Source: a virus
DNA length: 49,191 nucleotides
IMG/VR virus record: IMGVR_UViG_3300020140_000001
Span: 1 to 49,191 of that record
Direction: 5' to 3' (one strand)
The translations under genes and the position numbers were made by a program. Of the stretch, positions 2,239-28,093 are shown in pieces. The notes under the pieces were generated by a model. It saw nothing but the letters and a program-made list of their open reading frames with translations. It was not told where the DNA came from and ran no database searches. Within the stretch, counting starts at the first letter, position 1. Every line of letters begins with the position of its first letter.

Positions 2239-3831
2239 TCATATCGGGAGCCATGTCGTCGTTGCGAGATTCCACAGCCAACGGACCGACAAGGCTGGGC
2301 CGCAGGTTGTGGAACCGCCGTTAACTGTCTGGCCAGAATTCGGGGCGAAGGTAAGCGCGGTCACGGTGCCGTTGCAGGTTATGGTTAGCACCTCGTTCAA
2401 CGTCGGATCGGATGGAGCTGTGACGGTATAGCCAGCAATGGTGCCAGGAGTCGTATTGAGCTGCATGAACCCCGCATATGGCTTGGCCGTTATCGACCCG
2501 CCATTGCCAGCCGCTATCACGCGGACCGCATCGGATGCTATCTGTTGCAATACCGTGTCGGTAGCGAAGACGGCTGAATACGGATCTCCAATGGTACCAT
2601 AGATGGTGTTGTTGATGATCCTGTTGCCGGTTCCTGGAGTACCTCCGACGCCGAATGCCATCGTAGGGGAGCCCTGATTATCTCCCAATGTGTTGTTCTG
2701 GAATGTGCACCGGACGCAGCTTGATCCCACTTGGATTCCTACGCCGAGACCGCTCGACGGCTGCCCTTCGTTGAGGATGAAGTTACCATCCACCATAATG
2801 TCATTCGACGCGCCACTGGCCAGGATGCCATAGCACGGAGTGCTTACTGTCGCATTCCCGTCGTTGCTGATGTGATTGCCAGACACCAGGACTTCTTGAG
2901 CATCAAGGATACGAATGCCACAATATCCATTGAGCGTTTGGATACCGTCCCCTGACATGCGGTTGTTGGATATGACTATATCGTGGTTTTCCGCTCCGCC
3001 TCCTAGCCTGTTTATTCCAATGCCAGCCTGCGCCATTCCGTTGATGACGTTGTCGGCGATCACAATGTCATGCGAAGCCACCGTCTGTCCGCTATCACTC
3101 AGAACGATTATTCCGTCGATGCTGCCGCTCGTCAGATTGCTGTTGGTGATCTCGCAGTTGAACACACCGCCGTAGAAAGCGAACGAATAGTCGGAATTGT
3201 TCGATATGTTTAGGCCGCTGGCGTGGCAGTTATTGGTCCCCTGGGCGAACTCAGCCGAGTTTCCTGCGTCGTTCATCGTAAGGTTAATGAGCCACGCTCC
3301 CGTGGTGTTGACGATGTTCACTGGCCAGTTGCGCATGTGTTGGATAGTCAGATCCTTGACCACAACCATTGAGTTTCCGAGCCCGGTCATCACTCCGGCG
3401 CCGCGCGTGGTTTGCGTGGCCCTGTTGCCGTCGAGGATGCCATGTCCTTCGATGACAATGTTCGATGCGTTGGTGACAGTGAACAGCATGTCCTGATTGA
3501 CACCGGCCTTCATCAGGATCGTGCCATCGATGATCAGATGTGTGTTGCTTGGCACATTCAGCCGGGCGGAAATCAGACAGGCTGAACCGGTGTTGGGGAT
3601 ATAATACGTAGCATTTCCCGCTGCTGCGGTGATCCCGGCTTGGATGGTCGCCGTCACGTCGGTCGTGCCGTCACACACCAATCCGGCATTGAGTTTCAAT
3701 AAGCCTCCCACATAGAGGTTATTAACGCCAGGAGACCCGCAGGCAGTAGGATTAGTTGGTGAGCATTGCGCACGCGTGCTGGTTGGCCAGAAAGCAGCGG
3801 CGAGAACGAAAGCCAGGATCACGCCACGCAT
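2239..3831 (-). CDS. Secreted right-handed beta-helix (polygalacturonase-like) protein
   Basis: A 530-residue protein. It begins with a strong Sec signal peptide (MRGVILAFVLAAAFWPTSTRA, cleavage before QCS). Residues about 60-400 contain many parallel beta-helix repeats of the PbH1 type, seen as hydrophobic-x-hydrophobic-x-N patterns such as NIVIEGHGILDGN, DIVIADNVINGM, DIVISNNRMSG and EVLVSGNHISND. The GHGILDGN segment is like the GH28 fold core. The last about 90 residues look like a short beta-sandwich. The start overlaps the previous gene by 13 bases. Likely a depolymerase or receptor-binding spike, but the catalytic Asp set of GH28 could not be identified. A signal peptide on a virion spike is odd, so it may instead act in the host envelope. 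Confidence 0.7.
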   Translation of the reverse strand: MRGVILAFVLAAAFWPTSTRAQCSPTNPTACGSPGVNNLYVGGLLKLNAGLVCDGTTDVTATIQAGITAAAGNATYYIPNTGSACLISARLNVPSNTHLIIDGTILMKAGVNQDMLFTVTNASNIVIEGHGILDGNRATQTTRGAGVMTGLGNSMVVVKDLTIQHMRNWPVNIVNTTGAWLINLTMNDAGNSAEFAQGTNNCHASGLNISNNSDYSFAFYGGVFNCEITNSNLTSGSIDGIIVLSDSGQTVASHDIVIADNVINGMAQAGIGINRLGGGAENHDIVISNNRMSGDGIQTLNGYCGIRILDAQEVLVSGNHISNDGNATVSTPCYGILASGASNDIMVDGNFILNEGQPSSGLGVGIQVGSSCVRCTFQNNTLGDNQGSPTMAFGVGGTPGTGNRIINNTIYGTIGDPYSAVFATDTVLQQIASDAVRVIAAGNGGSITAKPYAGFMQLNTTPGTIAGYTVTAPSDPTLNEVLTITCNGTVTALTFAPNSGQTVNGGSTTCGPALSVRWLWNLATTTWLPI

Positions 3832-16001: not shown

Positions 16002-16726
16002 CAGCCGCCCTGGAATGCTGGCAACGCTGTGGCAGCCCCACCAATCAGCACACCGGCATTCTCAATACCGCGTCGCGCTCGATCGCTCTCCTGCTGGGCG
16101 ATATAGATCTCCTCCTCACAGAGCTGATCCCAGTAGGTTCGATCAAAACTCCCTTGCCCGTTATCCTTCGCCCATTCACAGGCTGCCGCCATACAGGCGC
16201 AACGCATCATGCGCGGATAGGTCGCCGTGACGAAGTTGGTATCATTCGCTGCCGACAGCCCTGCCGGTTCCTGATAGTAGGTGATGAAACCGGGATAATT
16301 CTGGTCCGGTGGACTGTCCATCTGGATCGAGGTCTGGTCGAACCCGAAGATCACCGGTGGCTGCTGAACGCGCGTATTGTCGGCATTGTAGGCCCATGCC
16401 TGATAGACTTGGGTGGGCGTCTTCTGCGTCATCCAGTAAGGTGCGCCGCTGTTCAGATACCAGAGATCCATCGGCTCCAGAAAGCCGGTCAGGGTTGAGA
16501 TCGCGATGGTATCGACGCCCTGCGTCAGCGTGATGCCCGTAGGTGCCGTCAGCATCTGCCAATGGCGGAGGCGACGGTAAATCCAGGACTCAGCCTCGTT
16601 GATGATGAAGTCAGCCGGATTGTTAGCGCCAGCCGTCGGAGCGATCGTCGCCTTGTTCATATAATTGGCGATCGAGCCCGATGTGGTGGAAAGACCCGTA
16701 AGGATCGTCCAGCTCAATACGGCCAT
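15998..16726 (-). CDS. Head-tail connector / tail adaptor-like protein
   Basis: A 242-residue protein (MAVLSWTILTGLSTTSGSIA). It has a conserved-looking ADFIINEAESWIYRRLRHWQ segment, then GFLEPMDLWYL and a C-terminal helical region CEEEIYIAQQESDRARRG. This layout, an INEAE-type helix followed by a small beta domain and closing helices, is typical of podovirus tail adaptor proteins of the P22 gp4 / T7 gp11 class. I take the ATG at 16726; the frame is open further upstream, but that part lies under the opposite-strand HNH gene and reads as noise. The next gene (nozzle) overlaps its stop. Confidence 0.6.
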   Translation of the reverse strand: MAVLSWTILTGLSTTSGSIANYMNKATIAPTAGANNPADFIINEAESWIYRRLRHWQMLTAPTGITLTQGVDTIAISTLTGFLEPMDLWYLNSGAPYWMTQKTPTQVYQAWAYNADNTRVQQPPVIFGFDQTSIQMDSPPDQNYPGFITYYQEPAGLSAANDTNFVTATYPRMMRCACMAAACEWAKDNGQGSFDRTYWDQLCEEEIYIAQQESDRARRGIENAGVLIGGAATALPAFQGGW

Positions 16727-16772
16727 GTCATATGGCCTTGACTTGGATAGCGACATGTTCCATGTTAGGACC

Positions 16773-17258
16773 ATGCCAGCCAAGAAAACCGTCACTCCTG
16801 AAGTGATAGAAACCATGTTCTGGGAACGCGTTAACAAGAACGGCCCAAACGGCTGTTGGGTTTGGAAGAATAAACCTGGATGTCGCCAGGGATATGGGAT
16901 GCTCAACATTGGGCGAAAGTGGCATCACCTTGCGCACAGAGTTAGCTTCGAACTCCATAACGGGGCGCTTCCGCCACATTCCCACAAAGGGCCGTACGTT
17001 CTTCATACATGCGACAATCCGTCGTGCGTAAACCCAGATCACCTCTATCTCGGAACGCCGAGGCAAAATAGCGATGATATGATCGCCAGAGAAAGGCAAT
17101 GCAAAGGAACAAAACGGCCGGGCGCTAAACTTTCCGAATTGGATGTCATTGCCATTAGGGCAATGGAGGCTCCTGAACGAAAAATCGCGCGTATCTACAG
17201 CGTCAGCCCTGTGACGATTCACAAGATCCGCTCTAGGGAGAAATGGAAGCACGTCTAG
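16773..17258 (+). CDS. HNH homing endonuclease (opposite strand to virion operon)
   Basis: A protein of about 161 residues starting MPAKKTVTPEVIETMFWERV, with an HNH_3-type core: GCWVWKN, YGMLNIG, AHRVSFELHNG, VLHTCDNPSCVNPDHLYLGTPRQNSDDM. The paired His/Cys-Asn-Cys and Asn-x-x-His elements are the nuclease and zinc-binding residues. The C-terminal 50 residues (AKLSELDVIAIRAMEAPERK, then SVSPVTIHKI) form a small HTH for target recognition. It is inserted head-on against the late operon between the connector and the glycosyltransferase fusion, and is more AT-rich than its neighbours. Its stop and that of the convergent gene share one CTAG (17255-17258). Other in-frame starts lie at 16755 and 16665. 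Confidence 0.85.
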   Translation: MPAKKTVTPEVIETMFWERVNKNGPNGCWVWKNKPGCRQGYGMLNIGRKWHHLAHRVSFELHNGALPPHSHKGPYVLHTCDNPSCVNPDHLYLGTPRQNSDDMIARERQCKGTKRPGAKLSELDVIAIRAMEAPERKIARIYSVSPVTIHKIRSREKWKHV

Positions 17259-20853: not shown

Positions 20854-21321
20854 TCATGTTACATGCACCCAACGCTGTCCCAGAGCGATTTTGCTGATTG
20901 TGCCCTGGGAAACACCGTAGCGCATGCCGAGTTCTCGTTGTGACACGCCGACCGTGAGCAGTGCTCGAATCTCTCGCACCTTCTGATCGGTCAGGACCGC
21001 GATAGCGTTTCGAACACCGTAGAGATGGCGCCCTTTCCGCTTCATGTCCTGATGGTTGTCGCCACTCGTGCCCACAAACAGATGCGCCGGATTGATGCAT
21101 CTTGGATTGTCGCACTTGTGGCATACCTGCCTGTGCAGGGGTATTTCGCCGAAAGCCAACTCGTAGGCTACGCGATGTGCATATGCCTGCACCCGCTCGC
21201 CGGTCTTTTTGAGCTGGCCGTACCCCTTCACATGCATAGACCGTTGCCACAGCCAGCATTCGTCTTCCAGGCCAACTGTGAAGCTTGCCTGAAATCGGCG
21301 GATCAGTCCTTCGTCCAGCAT
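20854..21321 (-). CDS. HNH homing endonuclease behind the capsid gene
   Basis: About 155 residues (MLDEGLIRRFQASFTVGLED). HNH_3-type core: ECWLWQRSMHVKGYGQLK, AHRVAYELAFGEIP, VCHKCDNPRCINPAHLFVGT, with the paired Cys/Asn/His residues of the family. The C-terminus is an HTH of the resolvase type (GVSQRELGMRYGVSQGTISK). It resembles the plus-strand HNH at 16.8 kb in architecture but is clearly different in sequence. I prefer the ATG at 21321 because GGAG lies 6 bases upstream; ATG 21333 is an alternative. It sits between the capsid and decoration genes on the same strand, so it is cotranscribed. Confidence 0.85.
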   Translation of the reverse strand: MLDEGLIRRFQASFTVGLEDECWLWQRSMHVKGYGQLKKTGERVQAYAHRVAYELAFGEIPLHRQVCHKCDNPRCINPAHLFVGTSGDNHQDMKRKGRHLYGVRNAIAVLTDQKVREIRALLTVGVSQRELGMRYGVSQGTISKIALGQRWVHVT

Positions 21322-21393
21322 CCCACTCTCCATTTTTAGGGGAGAGCATTATAGCCGGCGTTTGCACTTCCGCCAAGGTAGTAGTATTCCTCG

Positions 21394-21818
21394 TCACCCA
21401 GCAGAGGCCCATCTTACGATGCGGGTTTGCTTGGCCTGAGTTTGCGTAAGTGCAAACCCTCCCAAATAATACCAGGCGATACCCTTCGACCGACCGTAGT
21501 CGGACGGAATAGCGCCCCGCATTTCCTCGGGAACCACAATCGCCTCGGCCACCGTATCCTCGCCGAAGAAGATCGCGTTGTCGGAAAGACCGTTCGCCCA
21601 GGCCGTGAAGCTCCCGGAAATGTAGTTGCCGGAAACGTAGTTGCCCTTCGGCACGTTGGTCTGCTCGATGAAGCGCACACCCTCGAACTTCCCGATCTCG
21701 CCGTTGTAGATCATCTGGAAGCCTTCGTCGCGATACTGGTAGACCGACTCCAGATCGTTCTTCACCGGGCGCCATGTCGTTGGCCACGCGATGCCGAAGT
21801 ATTCGTCCGAAATGTTCG
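21394..21818 (-). CDS. Major capsid protein, 3' exon
   Basis: The C-terminal 140 or so residues of the coat protein. The sequence NISDEYFGIAWPTTWRPVK, then YNGEIGKFEGVRFIEQTN and a final RSKGIAWYYLGGFALTQTQ matches the C-terminal order of N4gp56-type major capsid proteins (a hydrophobic strand plus P-T-T-x-R, then GEIG-x-x-x-G-V-R-F-I-E-x-T). It has no start of its own; the upstream sequence is intron. If exon 1 (ending near 23001) is joined here, the frame is kept and the protein reads GGIAA(S)NISDEYF without a break. The stop is TGA at 21394-21396, but a +1 shift there opens 19 more codons to 21336 (see findings). Confidence 0.8.
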
Positions 21819-22058
21819 CACAGGCTCGCTATTTCCTGTACCGCTCCTTGCGGAACTGCTGACGGTCTCCCGCCAGTCCAGATCATATCATAAACCGACA
21901 CATGGTCGGTTCTGCCGCGCTTCGGCCCGCTTGGGCCTACTCCCCTCTCGGGGATGATCGTTGCACCTTCCGCATTTCTGCGGCTTGGCTCAGGATTATC
22001 CTTCTGCATTGCAGTTAGGGTTTTCCCTGAGTTCACGGCATTTTCACTCATGACTTAC
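21819..22058 (-). ncRNA. Group I intron B in the major capsid gene
   Basis: A compact group IA-type core of about 240 bases without an ORF. P element at 22018-22033 (AACTCAGGGAAAACCC) pairs with Q at 21982-21997 (AATCCTGAGCCAAGCC) to form P4. R is at 21950-21963 (CAACGATCATCCCC) and S at 21881-21891 (ATGATATGATC), giving P7 as GATCAT/ATGATC. Hairpins fitting P7.1, P7.2, P8 (ACCGAC/GTCGGT) and P9 are present, and P3 can form between TGCCGTG and CGCGGCA. A P1 helix CTCATGGT/GTCATGAG with a terminal U-G pair marks a likely 5' splice site at 22059/22058. The 3' end is inferred near 21819-21817. Confidence 0.8.
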
Positions 22059-22868
22059 ACCATGAGGGGGCTGATTTTGTAACCCATATACGGCCTGATC
22101 TTCATGCCGACTCGCTAAGTCGGCATCGCCGCCAATGGCGGCTGCTGCATCTTTCGATGCAGAGGAGACTATATCACAATCCGTCTCTACGAGACGGATC
22201 CCGTGTGCTTCGCTCCGCTTGGAGCTACTCCCATCTCTGGGATAGTCGTTGAAGGGACTTCCTAGCGCATCTTGCCATCTTATTGCGTGGTGGCGCACGT
22301 CGTAATTAAGCTTGGCCTTTTTGTTCATGTTGATGGTGGCAGGAAGATACTGAAGATTCTCCGCTACGTGCCATCCCCCCTTTGCAAGAGGGACTATGTG
22401 ATCAACATGATAACCGTCGGGACATGAGACATAAATCTGCGCGATAAGCGTTATCTCGCCTTGATCTCTCGTGCGCCTCATCCAAGCTTTTAACTTGGCT
22501 TTGTAGACCACGTGAGCCGATTTATGCGACGCTTGCCCTTCTGGGGTCTTGGCCCAAACCGCTTTTACCGCTGCTTGTTTTGCTGCAAAAGCACCCCCGG
22601 GGGCATTGACCTTTGCAACATAAGCGCGATGATTTTCGGTATTGCTCTTTGTGCATTCAACACATCGGCAACCGAGAATGTAACCGGTATAGCTGTGGGG
22701 AAACATGGGATGGCGAGGATCGCCACCATGCTTGACCTTGGCACCCGGCTTGCTCGTTAGGCGACGACCAAGCTTCTGAGAACGCAGCTTCTCGTACTCG
22801 GAGTTGGCTCCGCGGCATTCGCCGCAGCGGCATCCCTTCTTGTACGAAGACCGAGTTCCATGAGACAT
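22044..22868 (-). CDS. HNH homing endonuclease encoded in group I intron A
   Basis: A 274-residue ORF. It opens MSHGTRSSYKKGCRCGECRG and has a second CRC-x-EC unit (YILGCRCVECTKSNTENHRA), probably two small zinc knuckles. The HNH core is CPDGYHVDHIVPLAKGGWHV then ENLQYLPATINMNKKAKL, with the His-His and Asn residues of the family. The ATG at 22868 follows the Q element and lies in the P6 loop (P6 strands at 22872-22883 and 22254-22262), a standard place for intron ORFs. The frame stays open through the R and S core elements and past the likely 3' splice site, so the last about 70 residues double as ribozyme sequence and may be non-essential. Confidence 0.85.
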   Translation of the reverse strand: MSHGTRSSYKKGCRCGECRGANSEYEKLRSQKLGRRLTSKPGAKVKHGGDPRHPMFPHSYTGYILGCRCVECTKSNTENHRAYVAKVNAPGGAFAAKQAAVKAVWAKTPEGQASHKSAHVVYKAKLKAWMRRTRDQGEITLIAQIYVSCPDGYHVDHIVPLAKGGWHVAENLQYLPATINMNKKAKLNYDVRHHAIRWQDALGSPFNDYPRDGSSSKRSEAHGIRLVETDCDIVSSASKDAAAAIGGDADLASRHEDQAVYGLQNQPPHGVSHE

Positions 22869-23000
22869 ATAGGAAGTATACCCTGCTGATTGCCCAATCC
22901 CCACACTTTTCCAGCCGTCGCGCCCACGGTTACCCGTCACGCTGTGGCAGTGAGGCTCTAAGGGTGTTCCAGCAATTCGCACGGTTTTCATTCGCAGCTT
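22100..23000 (-). ncRNA. Group I intron A in the major capsid gene
   Basis: About 900 bases with an HNH ORF. P element at 22966-22977 (AATTGCTGGAAC) pairs with Q at 22881-22891 (AATCAGCAGGG). R at 22239-22252 (CAACGACTATCCC) and S at 22167-22175 (GATATAGTC) form P7 as GACTAT/ATAGTC. P7.1 (CCCAGAGATGGG), P7.2 (GCTCCAAGCGGAGC), P8 (ATCCGTCTC/GAGACGGAT) and three 3' hairpins follow, the same plan as intron B. The 5' end lies near the GCAGC-GTAA-GCTGC hairpin at 22994-23007; the 3' end is placed after the hairpin ending near 22103. Neither boundary is certain. Confidence 0.75.
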
Positions 23001-23001
23001 A

Positions 23002-23625
23002 CGCTGCGATGCCCCCGTAAATTGGCGCACTGCCGTTATCGTTGGCAGCTTGAGGGATATTGCGCTCCTTCATCACATCGACGATCGATTTGATGTGATT
23101 CTTGTGCAAGTTGACGCTGTTCGTCAGGGTCGTTGTCCCTGTAGTGCTCAGCGTGACGGCAGTCGTATCCGTCCCAACCGTCCCCGAAGCAGCGGATGCG
23201 ACCACCAAGAGTAGGGTATTGTAGAACTGGGTCCACGCCTGGCCATCCAAACCCTTCTTAGCGTCGTTCTTCAAAACCTTGTTGATGATCTCCTGGACCG
23301 GATGCTTTGATAGATTATCTAACATTCCGGTATATGGCACGGCATTTCCCAACTCAGTAACGGTTCCTGTTCCCTGAGCAATAGTGAAGTTGGTCACAGG
23401 TAGAGTTGAAGTCTCCGTAAGTGTAGTTCCCTGCGCGGCGACATCATTGTACACATTCCAGGTGAACAATTGCCCCTTGTGAAGTCCCTTGTCTGTGAAA
23501 TCTTTCGCGTCGCAGAACTGGCGATACTTGCAGAGGGGTTGTACTGCTGTTCGCAGGATATCCGATAGTTCCAGCGAGTACATATACCCACCGAGACTGT
23601 TAACTGCCCAAAGCTGGCCGGCCAC
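23002..23625 (-). CDS. Major capsid protein, 5' exon
   Basis: The N-terminal 208 residues of the coat protein. It reads MAGQLWAVNSLGGYMYSLEL, with LRTAVQPLCKYRQFCDAKDF, then GTLTETSTLPVTN-like and SKHPVQEIINKVLKNDAKKG segments, the order found in N4gp56-type HK97-fold capsid proteins. The start is GTG at 23625 with a strong GGAGG site six bases upstream. Without splicing the frame ends at TAA (22999-23001) just after IYGGIAA, far short of a full coat protein. The missing half is found 1.2 kb downstream behind two group I intron cores. Spliced length would be about 350 residues, normal for the family. Confidence 0.8.
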
Positions 23626-25839: not shown

Positions 25840-25901
25840 GCGTACCAGATCATCCAGACCAAGCAATATACCGCAACGCCGAATGCCAGCATTCCGATCA
25901 C
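25836..25901 (-). CDS. 21-residue hydrophobic membrane peptide
   Basis: A very short ORF starting GTG at 25901: MIGMLAFGVAVYCLVWMIWY plus a final Ala. It is almost entirely hydrophobic and long enough for one membrane pass. It is coupled on both sides: its GTG overlaps the portal stop (GTGA) and its TGA overlaps the FkbM ATG (ATGA). A GGGAGG element lies about six bases before its start. That exact fit argues for real translation. It is too short to classify; it could be a membrane-active peptide or simply a coupling leader for the methyltransferase. Confidence 0.6.
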   Translation of the reverse strand: MIGMLAFGVAVYCLVWMIWYA

Positions 25902-28093
25902 CCTATCCCTCCCGGCGCTGGCCTAGGCATCGCCATCTCGTGCTGCTGCGACGCGCGATCCGTCACAATCCGATGCGCATGGTCGGCGCCCTTGTTGTGC
26001 AGATCGACCTGCGCCTGAAGCCACTGCCGCCAGTTCGCGGAATGCTCCGCAAGCTGATCCCGCTGCAATTCCATCTCATCCGAGCGACGGTCGTTGTCGT
26101 TCCTCATCTGCTGGATTTGCTGCGCCGATTGGGTCTGAAGCTGCGCCGTCTGCAACCGCATCGGATCAGGCGCCGCTCCCTGTCCCGCGCCTCCCTTCTG
26201 CTGGAGCTTCTGGATCTGCTGCTGCAACTGCGCCACCTGCGGATCAAAGCCCTGCTTGATGAAGCGCTCGCCATCCTTGTAGCCGGCCAGTCCGAACAGC
26301 TCCTTTGCCACCTCTTCGAAGTTCGCACCCTGTGCCGCGATTGGGCCGAATATCTGCCCAAGTCCCTGCGCCACATTCATCAGGTTGGCCATCTTCAGCC
26401 GTGGATTGGTGGCGCCGGTCCCGACATTCGCACGCGTCGTCAGGGACTGGCTCAGCAGTTCGTCCGTGATGTGGTTTAGCCCGAACTTCTGGAACAACTG
26501 CGCCTGGCGCCCAGCAATCGCCAGGATGACCGGATCAGTCTCGTATGCCTGCTCCAGCTTGATCAGCAGCCGGATCAGCGGCTCAACGAACGTCGTCGCG
26601 AACACCCGCAACTCGTACTCTCCCAACCCAGAAGCCGCCCCCGTCAATAGGTGCATGCCGGTGGCCGGCGCCTCCCGAAGCTGCGATGCCTGCACCGAAG
26701 CAGCGTTGAAGGTGCCGCTCAGCTCATCCCAGTCCAGGTTGATCCGATCCTGCTCGGCGTAGGCCGACTCCCCAGGCTCAGGCGGCCGATCCCAGGTAAT
26801 GATATTATTCGCAATCGGTTCATCTTTCGCAGCAGTGACCAGGATTACCTTGGCTGGAGCAAACCGGGTGAGATCCTGGTTCTCCAGCCCATGTCCCGTC
26901 TTCACAAACTGCCGCGGATTGAGCGACAGCTTCACGTTGTCGAAGCGCAAGTTCCAATCGTCGTTGCCAGCGCGCTGGAGATCGGAGACCAGTTCCACCT
27001 TTGACGATGGGTAAGTCTTGTGCGTCTCCAGCACAACCATTCCAATCACATAGGGCCGCTCGCCATGAAGCTCGACCTCCTCCAGCGGCTTCGGATCTTC
27101 CAGCAACTCGCCGTCAGATCCCAGCGTGTGGTAATGCCAGTCGCGGCCCCGATACTTGATGATGTTCCGATGCACCCACGAGATATCGAACGCTCGCGGC
27201 TTCCAGCTATCGCTATCCTTCCCTGGCACTCGACCCTGCTCGCGTGCACGCCGCGTTACATCATCAGCCCGATCGGTTGATGACCGGAGCGCGCTCTCGG
27301 AAATCTTCTTCCACTCGCCCGTGTCCATCCGCTCAGTCACGTCCTGGATGTACATCGGGATCAGTTCGACCAGATACGGACTGTCCTTCACCGGATTGCG
27401 CCAATCCGCGCCCGGCTCAAACCGGATGTTCTCTGGCGCCAGCAGGTTGATGAACGGTTCGTCGAACAGCTTCTTCATCACGTCGCTGTCCTCGAACGAG
27501 AAGCCGCCATCCTCCCCAGGCACAAGCCGCTGCTCAGTATGCGAGAATGCCTCCTCGTACTTCCACCCCGCCCGCGCGCAACAGATGCCCATCACATCGC
27601 CGTCCTGCCGCGCGCCAATCACCGTCAGAAACCACGGGATCGTCTTGGTAAGCCGGTATTGCAGCAGCGCCTTCATCAGCTCGGCGCTGGCCACCTGGAA
27701 CTGGTCGTCCTGATCCTCTGGATCGATGCTGACCACGTCTTCGTTGGAGAAGAACGCACTGGCCGTCACGCTCTCATCGTTGCGCACCATTGCCCGCGTC
27801 TTCGGCCGAAACAGATTCGACCGATAGGCATAGTCGCGCGTCAGATACTTCGACCCCGTGGGGAACTGGTTCTGGAATGCACGGAGCGAGTCATTCCACT
27901 TGGCCCGGCGCCCCGCGTTGATCCAGTTGGTGGACGAGGAGAATATCTCCCGCGCCAACTTCTGCGCCTCTTCGGGCTCCAGGATGTCAGGGCCACTGCC
28001 TTGGCGCTCCTCGAAGTGCGAGATAGCTCCGGGCTCCCAGCCGTATGGGCCTGATTGTATGTCTGGTGGAGTGTCGCGACCGTTCAGGCTCAT
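25898..28093 (-). CDS. Portal protein
   Basis: A 731-residue protein. The first 150 residues (INAGRRAKWNDSLRAFQNQF, TRDYAYRSNLFRPKTRAMVR, NDESVTASAFFSNEDVVSI) and the wing-like part are characteristic of large podovirus portals, which form the dodecameric DNA gateway and bind terminase. Residues about 480-530 (LREAPATGMHLLTGAASGLG) match the clip/stem helices region of the family. The last 150 residues are Gln-rich coiled-coil (LQQQIQKLQQKG, MELQRDQLAEHSANWRQWLQ), like a portal barrel. ATG at 28093 overlaps the upstream stop. Long for a portal, in line with relatives of the P22 gp1 size class. Confidence 0.75.
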   Translation of the reverse strand: MSLNGRDTPPDIQSGPYGWEPGAISHFEERQGSGPDILEPEEAQKLAREIFSSSTNWINAGRRAKWNDSLRAFQNQFPTGSKYLTRDYAYRSNLFRPKTRAMVRNDESVTASAFFSNEDVVSIDPEDQDDQFQVASAELMKALLQYRLTKTIPWFLTVIGARQDGDVMGICCARAGWKYEEAFSHTEQRLVPGEDGGFSFEDSDVMKKLFDEPFINLLAPENIRFEPGADWRNPVKDSPYLVELIPMYIQDVTERMDTGEWKKISESALRSSTDRADDVTRRAREQGRVPGKDSDSWKPRAFDISWVHRNIIKYRGRDWHYHTLGSDGELLEDPKPLEEVELHGERPYVIGMVVLETHKTYPSSKVELVSDLQRAGNDDWNLRFDNVKLSLNPRQFVKTGHGLENQDLTRFAPAKVILVTAAKDEPIANNIITWDRPPEPGESAYAEQDRINLDWDELSGTFNAASVQASQLREAPATGMHLLTGAASGLGEYELRVFATTFVEPLIRLLIKLEQAYETDPVILAIAGRQAQLFQKFGLNHITDELLSQSLTTRANVGTGATNPRLKMANLMNVAQGLGQIFGPIAAQGANFEEVAKELFGLAGYKDGERFIKQGFDPQVAQLQQQIQKLQQKGGAGQGAAPDPMRLQTAQLQTQSAQQIQQMRNDNDRRSDEMELQRDQLAEHSANWRQWLQAQVDLHNKGADHAHRIVTDRASQQHEMAMPRPAPGGIG

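Follow-up and report, generated by a model that had tools for sequence, protein, structure and literature searches.

A bacteriophage major capsid gene predicted to be split by two group I introns only 12 nucleotides apart

Results

A probable 12-nt exon flanked by two group I introns of a capsid gene

The major capsid gene on the minus strand of a 49,191-base virus record (the whole of which was analysed and is called the window here) very probably consists of three exons of 573, 12 and 414 nt, with two group I introns, A and B, lying just 12 nt apart and a predicted in-frame product of 332 residues (Table 1). The identity of the exons, the two intron cores, the adherence to splice-site rules and the reading frame can all be read from the DNA. 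Actual splicing with inclusion of exon 2, and the roles of the P10 and P1 helices in it, are predictions from the same letters. Both fragments of the capsid protein matched phrog_1357, the major head protein, covering residues 45-200 and 230-337 of the 356-residue profile. Among named sequences, exon 1 is related to proteins of Vibrio and Escherichia phages, of which one is annotated as "major capsid protein", and an SU10-type portal gene (25898-28093) lies upstream. An uninterrupted relative of the capsid gene with 50% identity is also present in L182 (PBIO01000021.1), a contig of 34,887 bases that had been assigned to a Halobacteriovorax bin. L182 is probably a phage contig, as an equal-sized contig, L099, stands in the viral set; its binning hints at Halobacteriovorax as the host group but is no proof.

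Table 1. Features of the split capsid gene and its introns (window coordinates)
Feature	Position	Strand	Details
Exon 1, major capsid gene	23053..23625	minus	573 nt, 191 codons; GTG start after GGAGG; ends AAU AUC CCU (NIP)
Intron A, group I	22094..23052	minus	959 nt; starts CAAGCUGCC, ends ...GAUCAGG (last base G); placed by relatives and the U/G splice-site rule
Intron A P10 strand UACGG	23015..23019	minus	5/5 pairs with exon 2 CCGUA
Intron A guide sequence GGGGGCAU	23009..23016	minus	P1 with exon 1 end AUAUCCCU: 7/8 pairs, U.G at splice site
Intron A core, 5' half (P3-P6)	22883..22984	minus	P3 (CCGUG), P4 (UGCUGG/UCAGCA), P5, inserted hairpins
HNH endonuclease-like ORF	22044..22868	minus	ATG at 22868, 274 codons; opens in P6a loop of intron A
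Intron A core, 3' half	22145..22247	minus	P7, P7.1, P7.2, P3', P8, P9
Exon 2, micro-exon	22082..22093	minus	12 nt, CCGUAUAUGGGU = Pro-Tyr-Met-Gly (PYMG), between the two intron cores
Intron B, group I	21808..22081	minus	274 nt, no ORF; starts UACAAAAUC, ends ...CAUUUCG (last base G)
Intron B guide sequence AGCCC	22068..22072	minus	P1 with exon 2 end GGGU/U
Exon 3, major capsid gene	21394..21807	minus	414 nt; GAC GAA UAC UUC..., 137 codons plus UGA
HNH_3 endonuclease gene, free-standing	20854..21333	minus	Directly downstream of capsid gene; PF13392 E 5e-12

Relatives with an uninterrupted gene fix the exon boundaries

Viral contigs were scanned twice, with the N- and C-terminal capsid fragments as queries, which yielded more than 100 loci, most of them carrying an uninterrupted gene. 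Residues 180-210 are spanned without insertion by 92 distinct relative sequences, indicating that both introns are insertions. The protein of the intronless relatives runs ...MKERNIP-PYMG-DEYFGIAW..., with MKERNIPPYMGDEYFGIAW in relatives whose gene is uninterrupted and ...MKERNIPPYMGDEYFGIAWPTTWRP... in the closest of them. Exon 1 is homologous to these proteins as far as NIP (CCU, 23053) and the match of exon 3 begins at DEYF (GAC, 21807). The intervening PYMG is uninterrupted in relatives such as L003, L007 and L012-L016; exon 2 shares 11 of its 12 bases with relatives such as L007 (CCGTATATGGGG), and all 19 close relatives aligned have four residues at this position. The boundaries thus fall at 23053/23052, 22094/22093, 22082/22081 and 21808/21807, and at all four splice sites the group I rule is kept, with the exon ending in U and the intron in G. 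Joining the three exons gives one uninterrupted 332-residue frame that reads ...NIP-PYMG-DEYF..., as in the intronless relatives. The spliced mRNA is predicted to contain the joins CCT/CCGTATATGGGT/GAC, and the peptide across them NIPPYMGDEYFGIAW.

An initial annotation of this DNA had described the ORF ends at 22999 and about 21816, as we find them, but had carried the N-terminal exon to about residue 208. The last 17 of those "coat" codons are intron A read to a stop, the TAA at 22999 falling within that intron. The junction proposed there, GCGT/CGAAC, makes a product unlike any relative, and the relatives place the boundaries elsewhere. Its suggestion of a micro-exon, by contrast, is borne out by the 12 nt encoding PYMG, which are conserved in relatives.

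The choice of joins was also assessed by enumeration between fixed anchors, covering 882,618 two-intron joins and all one-intron joins of the same length. Just one two-intron join combined the full consensus with the U and G rule at each of the four sites. Among one-intron joins of the same length, the best scored 15.3 of 17.8 and broke the rule. When the 91 nt between P9 of intron A and P2 of intron B were shuffled 100,000 times, no perfect rule-obeying join appeared. The arrangement is known from one contig; it is improbable that an assembly error would have kept the frame along with the rule at each of the four splice sites.

Both introns have a group I core

The Rfam group I covariance model (RF00028) detected core B (21859-22091, minus strand) with 57.8 bits (E 3.6e-12), above the gathering score of 50. 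The 3' half of core A (22145-22398) reached 28.5 bits (E 1e-4), below that score, which we attribute to the ORF that separates its 5' half from P7-P9. The helices P1-P9.2 of intron A were found, and 89 of 105 positions in its 5' half are identical to the corresponding half of an intron that Rfam detects in the capsid gene of a related locus, L096. This half also resembles, at the DNA level, the Twort nrdE intron that carries I-TwoI; a DNA pattern for it gave no matches in the pattern search. The unconstrained minimum free-energy fold of intron B displays P1-P6, P7.1, P7.2, P8 and P9. Thus, the earlier claim of two separate group I cores in the capsid gene stands, with the covariance model supporting B at the gathering level and A by a subthreshold hit to its 3' half.

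In both introns P3, P4, P6, P7, P8 and P9 occur in order, P3 and P7 are pseudoknotted, and P7.1 and P7.2 lie between P7 and P3'. In both, too, the U that closes the upstream exon pairs with a G in the guide. P7 pairs exactly, as GACUAU/AUAGUC in A and as GAUCAU/AUGAUC in B, and the two versions differ by matching changes; these pairs, like the shared P7.1, P7.2, P8 and P9, confirm what had been noted from the letters. P7.1 and P7.2 are a mark of subgroup IA, the type of the T4 td and Twort introns, and from their presence in both we take A and B to be phage IA introns. The parts from P7 to the end are similar, indicating that the two introns are related, whereas their 5' halves and guide sequences differ. 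The pentamer UACGG occurs once in intron A, just upstream of its guide, and the P1 and P10 of this intron have two G in common, so that P1 would have to shorten or slip before the second step. The P10 of intron B is weak.

Endonuclease genes in and around the introns

The HNH-like ORF of intron A opens directly after a strand of P6a (ACUUCC/GGAAGU, 22877-22872/22262-22257) and continues without a stop across A's 3' core and exon 2 until it reaches P2 of intron B. Its extension past the end of intron A is probably incidental; intron ORFs that overlap the core are already known (PMC3984707). The product matched PF14279 with an E of 0.004, below the cutoff, and phrog endonuclease families with E values down to 2e-8; it had no BLASTP similarity to I-TwoI. 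In 15 contigs with relatives of this ORF, some of which are near tRNAs, no group I intron was detected there by Rfam at the gathering threshold. These relatives are mostly not seen to be intron-borne, and intron A may therefore have captured a free-standing gene.

For the ORF-less intron B, the HNH_3 gene that immediately follows the capsid gene is a possible trans-acting partner. This gene has a counterpart (57-66% identity) behind the capsid gene in L005, L012 and L014, where the latter is intronless, and a 38% homologue within one of the L096 capsid introns. A second HNH_3 gene in the window (16665-17258, plus strand) is likewise 38% identical to it. A search of IMG/VR with the insertion-site DNA pattern of intron B gave nine matches, none in a capsid gene of this family.

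Introns at other sites in related capsid genes

Five related contigs have introns in the same capsid gene, all at sites other than those of the window. The most interrupted gene, L096:2774-6139, has five introns and six exons (L096 and L050 are one contig, IMGVR_UViG_3300027857_000018), against three introns in Twort orf142. Its internal exons measure 39, 48 and about 43 nt, plus one long exon, and a LAGLIDADG-like ORF (WLAGIMDGEG) lies in the first intron and an HNH_3-like ORF in the fourth. The L051 gene has two introns (617-1372 and 2085-2356), the first with a LAGLIDADG-like ORF (WLAGIIDGEG) and the second ORF-less and inserted near the C-terminus, not far from where the last L096 intron sits. 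In L028:2960-3536, two introns near the start of the gene are separated by a 69-nt exon; without the second (3303-3535, 233 nt) the protein is restored, although the Rfam group I model does not detect this intron. L038 and L088 each have one intron near residue 13. Nine junctions were examined in L096, L051 and L028, and eight of them restore the protein in keeping with the U and G rule. The exception is the last of L096 (5814-6066), where the protein is restored only if the intron ends ...AAUAUCA without a final G, unlike the gene's other junctions. Together, these loci show a capsid gene repeatedly invaded by predicted introns. Two introns in one phage capsid gene had been called unusual, which agrees with the published phages that we found but not with these relatives, which match that number or exceed it.

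Discussion

A model for splicing around the 12-nt exon

In the splicing scheme that we propose, each intron would fold on its own, with intron A recognising AUAUCCCU and intron B recognising UAUGGGU, each directly before its 5' splice site. Intron A would position its 3' splice site through P10 pairing with CCGUA, the first five bases of the micro-exon, and intron B would take the last four, GGGU, as its P1 substrate. Exon 2 would thus be divided between the two ribozymes, and either order of removal may be possible, since B is independent of exon 1 and A needs just the start of exon 2. The TAA at 22999 would halt ribosomes on unspliced RNA; stalling at intron stops has been discussed as a help to intron folding (PMC3984707). 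The HNH-like ORF may make intron A mobile, and intron B may have been gained in trans by homing or by recombination.

Several other readings of this region were weighed. A single intron that is spliced at or close to GCGT/CGAAC and leaves the second core a relic can point to the score of its best join (MKERNIPPNISDEYFGIAW, the 15.3 noted above). Such a join violates the U rule, however, gives no account of PYMG and makes a relic of the intact 57.8-bit core B; we give this reading virtually no credence. Nesting of either intron in the other, which would mean a single outer pair of splice sites, was the other arrangement raised initially. The two cores are indeed close, P9.2 of intron A nearly touching P1 of intron B. 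However, A and B have separate 5' and 3' splice sites, and what lies between the introns is capsid coding sequence that is conserved and in frame on both sides, which speaks for excluding a twintron and makes it scarcely credible to us. That the introns no longer splice is hardly more probable. A capsid protein is essential, which argues against a broken gene, and a capsid built from two separate polypeptides, for which the open frame in each half might be taken to speak, would be without PYMG. Moreover, the cores, guide sequences and terminal G are intact in both introns, although an unspliced intron-split phage gene, Aeh1 nrdA, is cited in PMC7344957.

The remaining reading, that a composite ribozyme made up of A's 5' half and B's 3' half joins exon 1 to exon 3, alone or beside normal splicing, is unlikely but carries more weight. 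A and B clearly resemble each other in their 3' halves, the 5' strand of A's P3 pairs at six of six positions with the 3' strand of B's P3, and loss of 12 nt (PYMG) would keep the frame. Skipping between tandem group I introns is also documented (PMC10136302, and for the SIOphi terminase PMC11878797). Against this, each intron has its own complete core and B's guide sequence mismatches the end of exon 1. A protein made by skipping would, in addition, be abnormal, given the four residues that all of the aligned close relatives have at this position. Inclusion of exon 2 by two independently acting introns is thus the reading that we prefer. It is quite improbable, if conceivable, that the micro-exon serves as a switch, with a composite A/B ribozyme skipping it in part of the transcripts to give in-frame capsid proteins with and without PYMG, or with the order of splicing setting the amount of late capsid protein.

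If spliced as proposed, the 12 bases would represent a tight natural limit on the spacing of two group I ribozymes in a bacterial virus, as this stretch must provide both the 3' splice-site partner of A and the 5' splice-site substrate of B. How short such an exon can be, and whether it is skipped, could be addressed directly with a single short transcript. In the related genes, where there are up to five introns, a structural gene is seen under repeated intron invasion. Capsid genes split in this way are fragmented by ordinary ORF callers and can escape virus surveys that use capsid markers.

Comparison with known systems

A close likeness is to Twort orf142, in which a very short phage exon is also flanked by two similar group I introns. 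According to PMC10136302, introns 2 and 3 of that gene (group IA2) are separated by a 23-nt exon and exon skipping occurs. The gene is a different one, and the exon described here is 12 nt; here, too, intron A has an HNH-like ORF and the guides of A and B are fully different. In Coxiella 23S rRNA, a 34-nt exon lies between group I introns and is subject to exon skipping (PMC10136302). Small exons between two introns, with skipping seen in cDNA, are likewise reported for the phiNIT1 ribonucleotide reductase and SIOphi terminase genes (Bastillevirinae; PMC11878797); these are other genes, and the available text of that source states no exon size. The Twort nrdE intron shares with intron A a similar 5' core half followed by an HNH gene, but the HNH proteins have no BLASTP similarity.

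Introns in major capsid genes are known from mycobacteriophage LittleE (Cluster J) and lactococcal phage Tuc2009 (PMC3706429). The LittleE intron, which is probably group I and has an HNH gene inside, is spliced in vivo (PMC3706429). In contrast to the gene described here, these are single introns without a micro-exon. Outside phages, a 1-nt exon lies between two group I (IB) introns in placozoan mitochondrial cox1 (PMC5436844), a micro-exon likewise between group I introns, but shorter, mitochondrial and in neither a phage nor a capsid gene. Exons of 3 bp in fungal mitochondrial genomes are cited in PMC12308204, which does not state the type of the flanking introns. Within a literature coverage that is incomplete, 12 nt is the shortest phage exon between group I introns that we found reported. 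Short exons between group I introns are thus already known, and the 12-nt exon of this capsid gene is an extreme variant of them.
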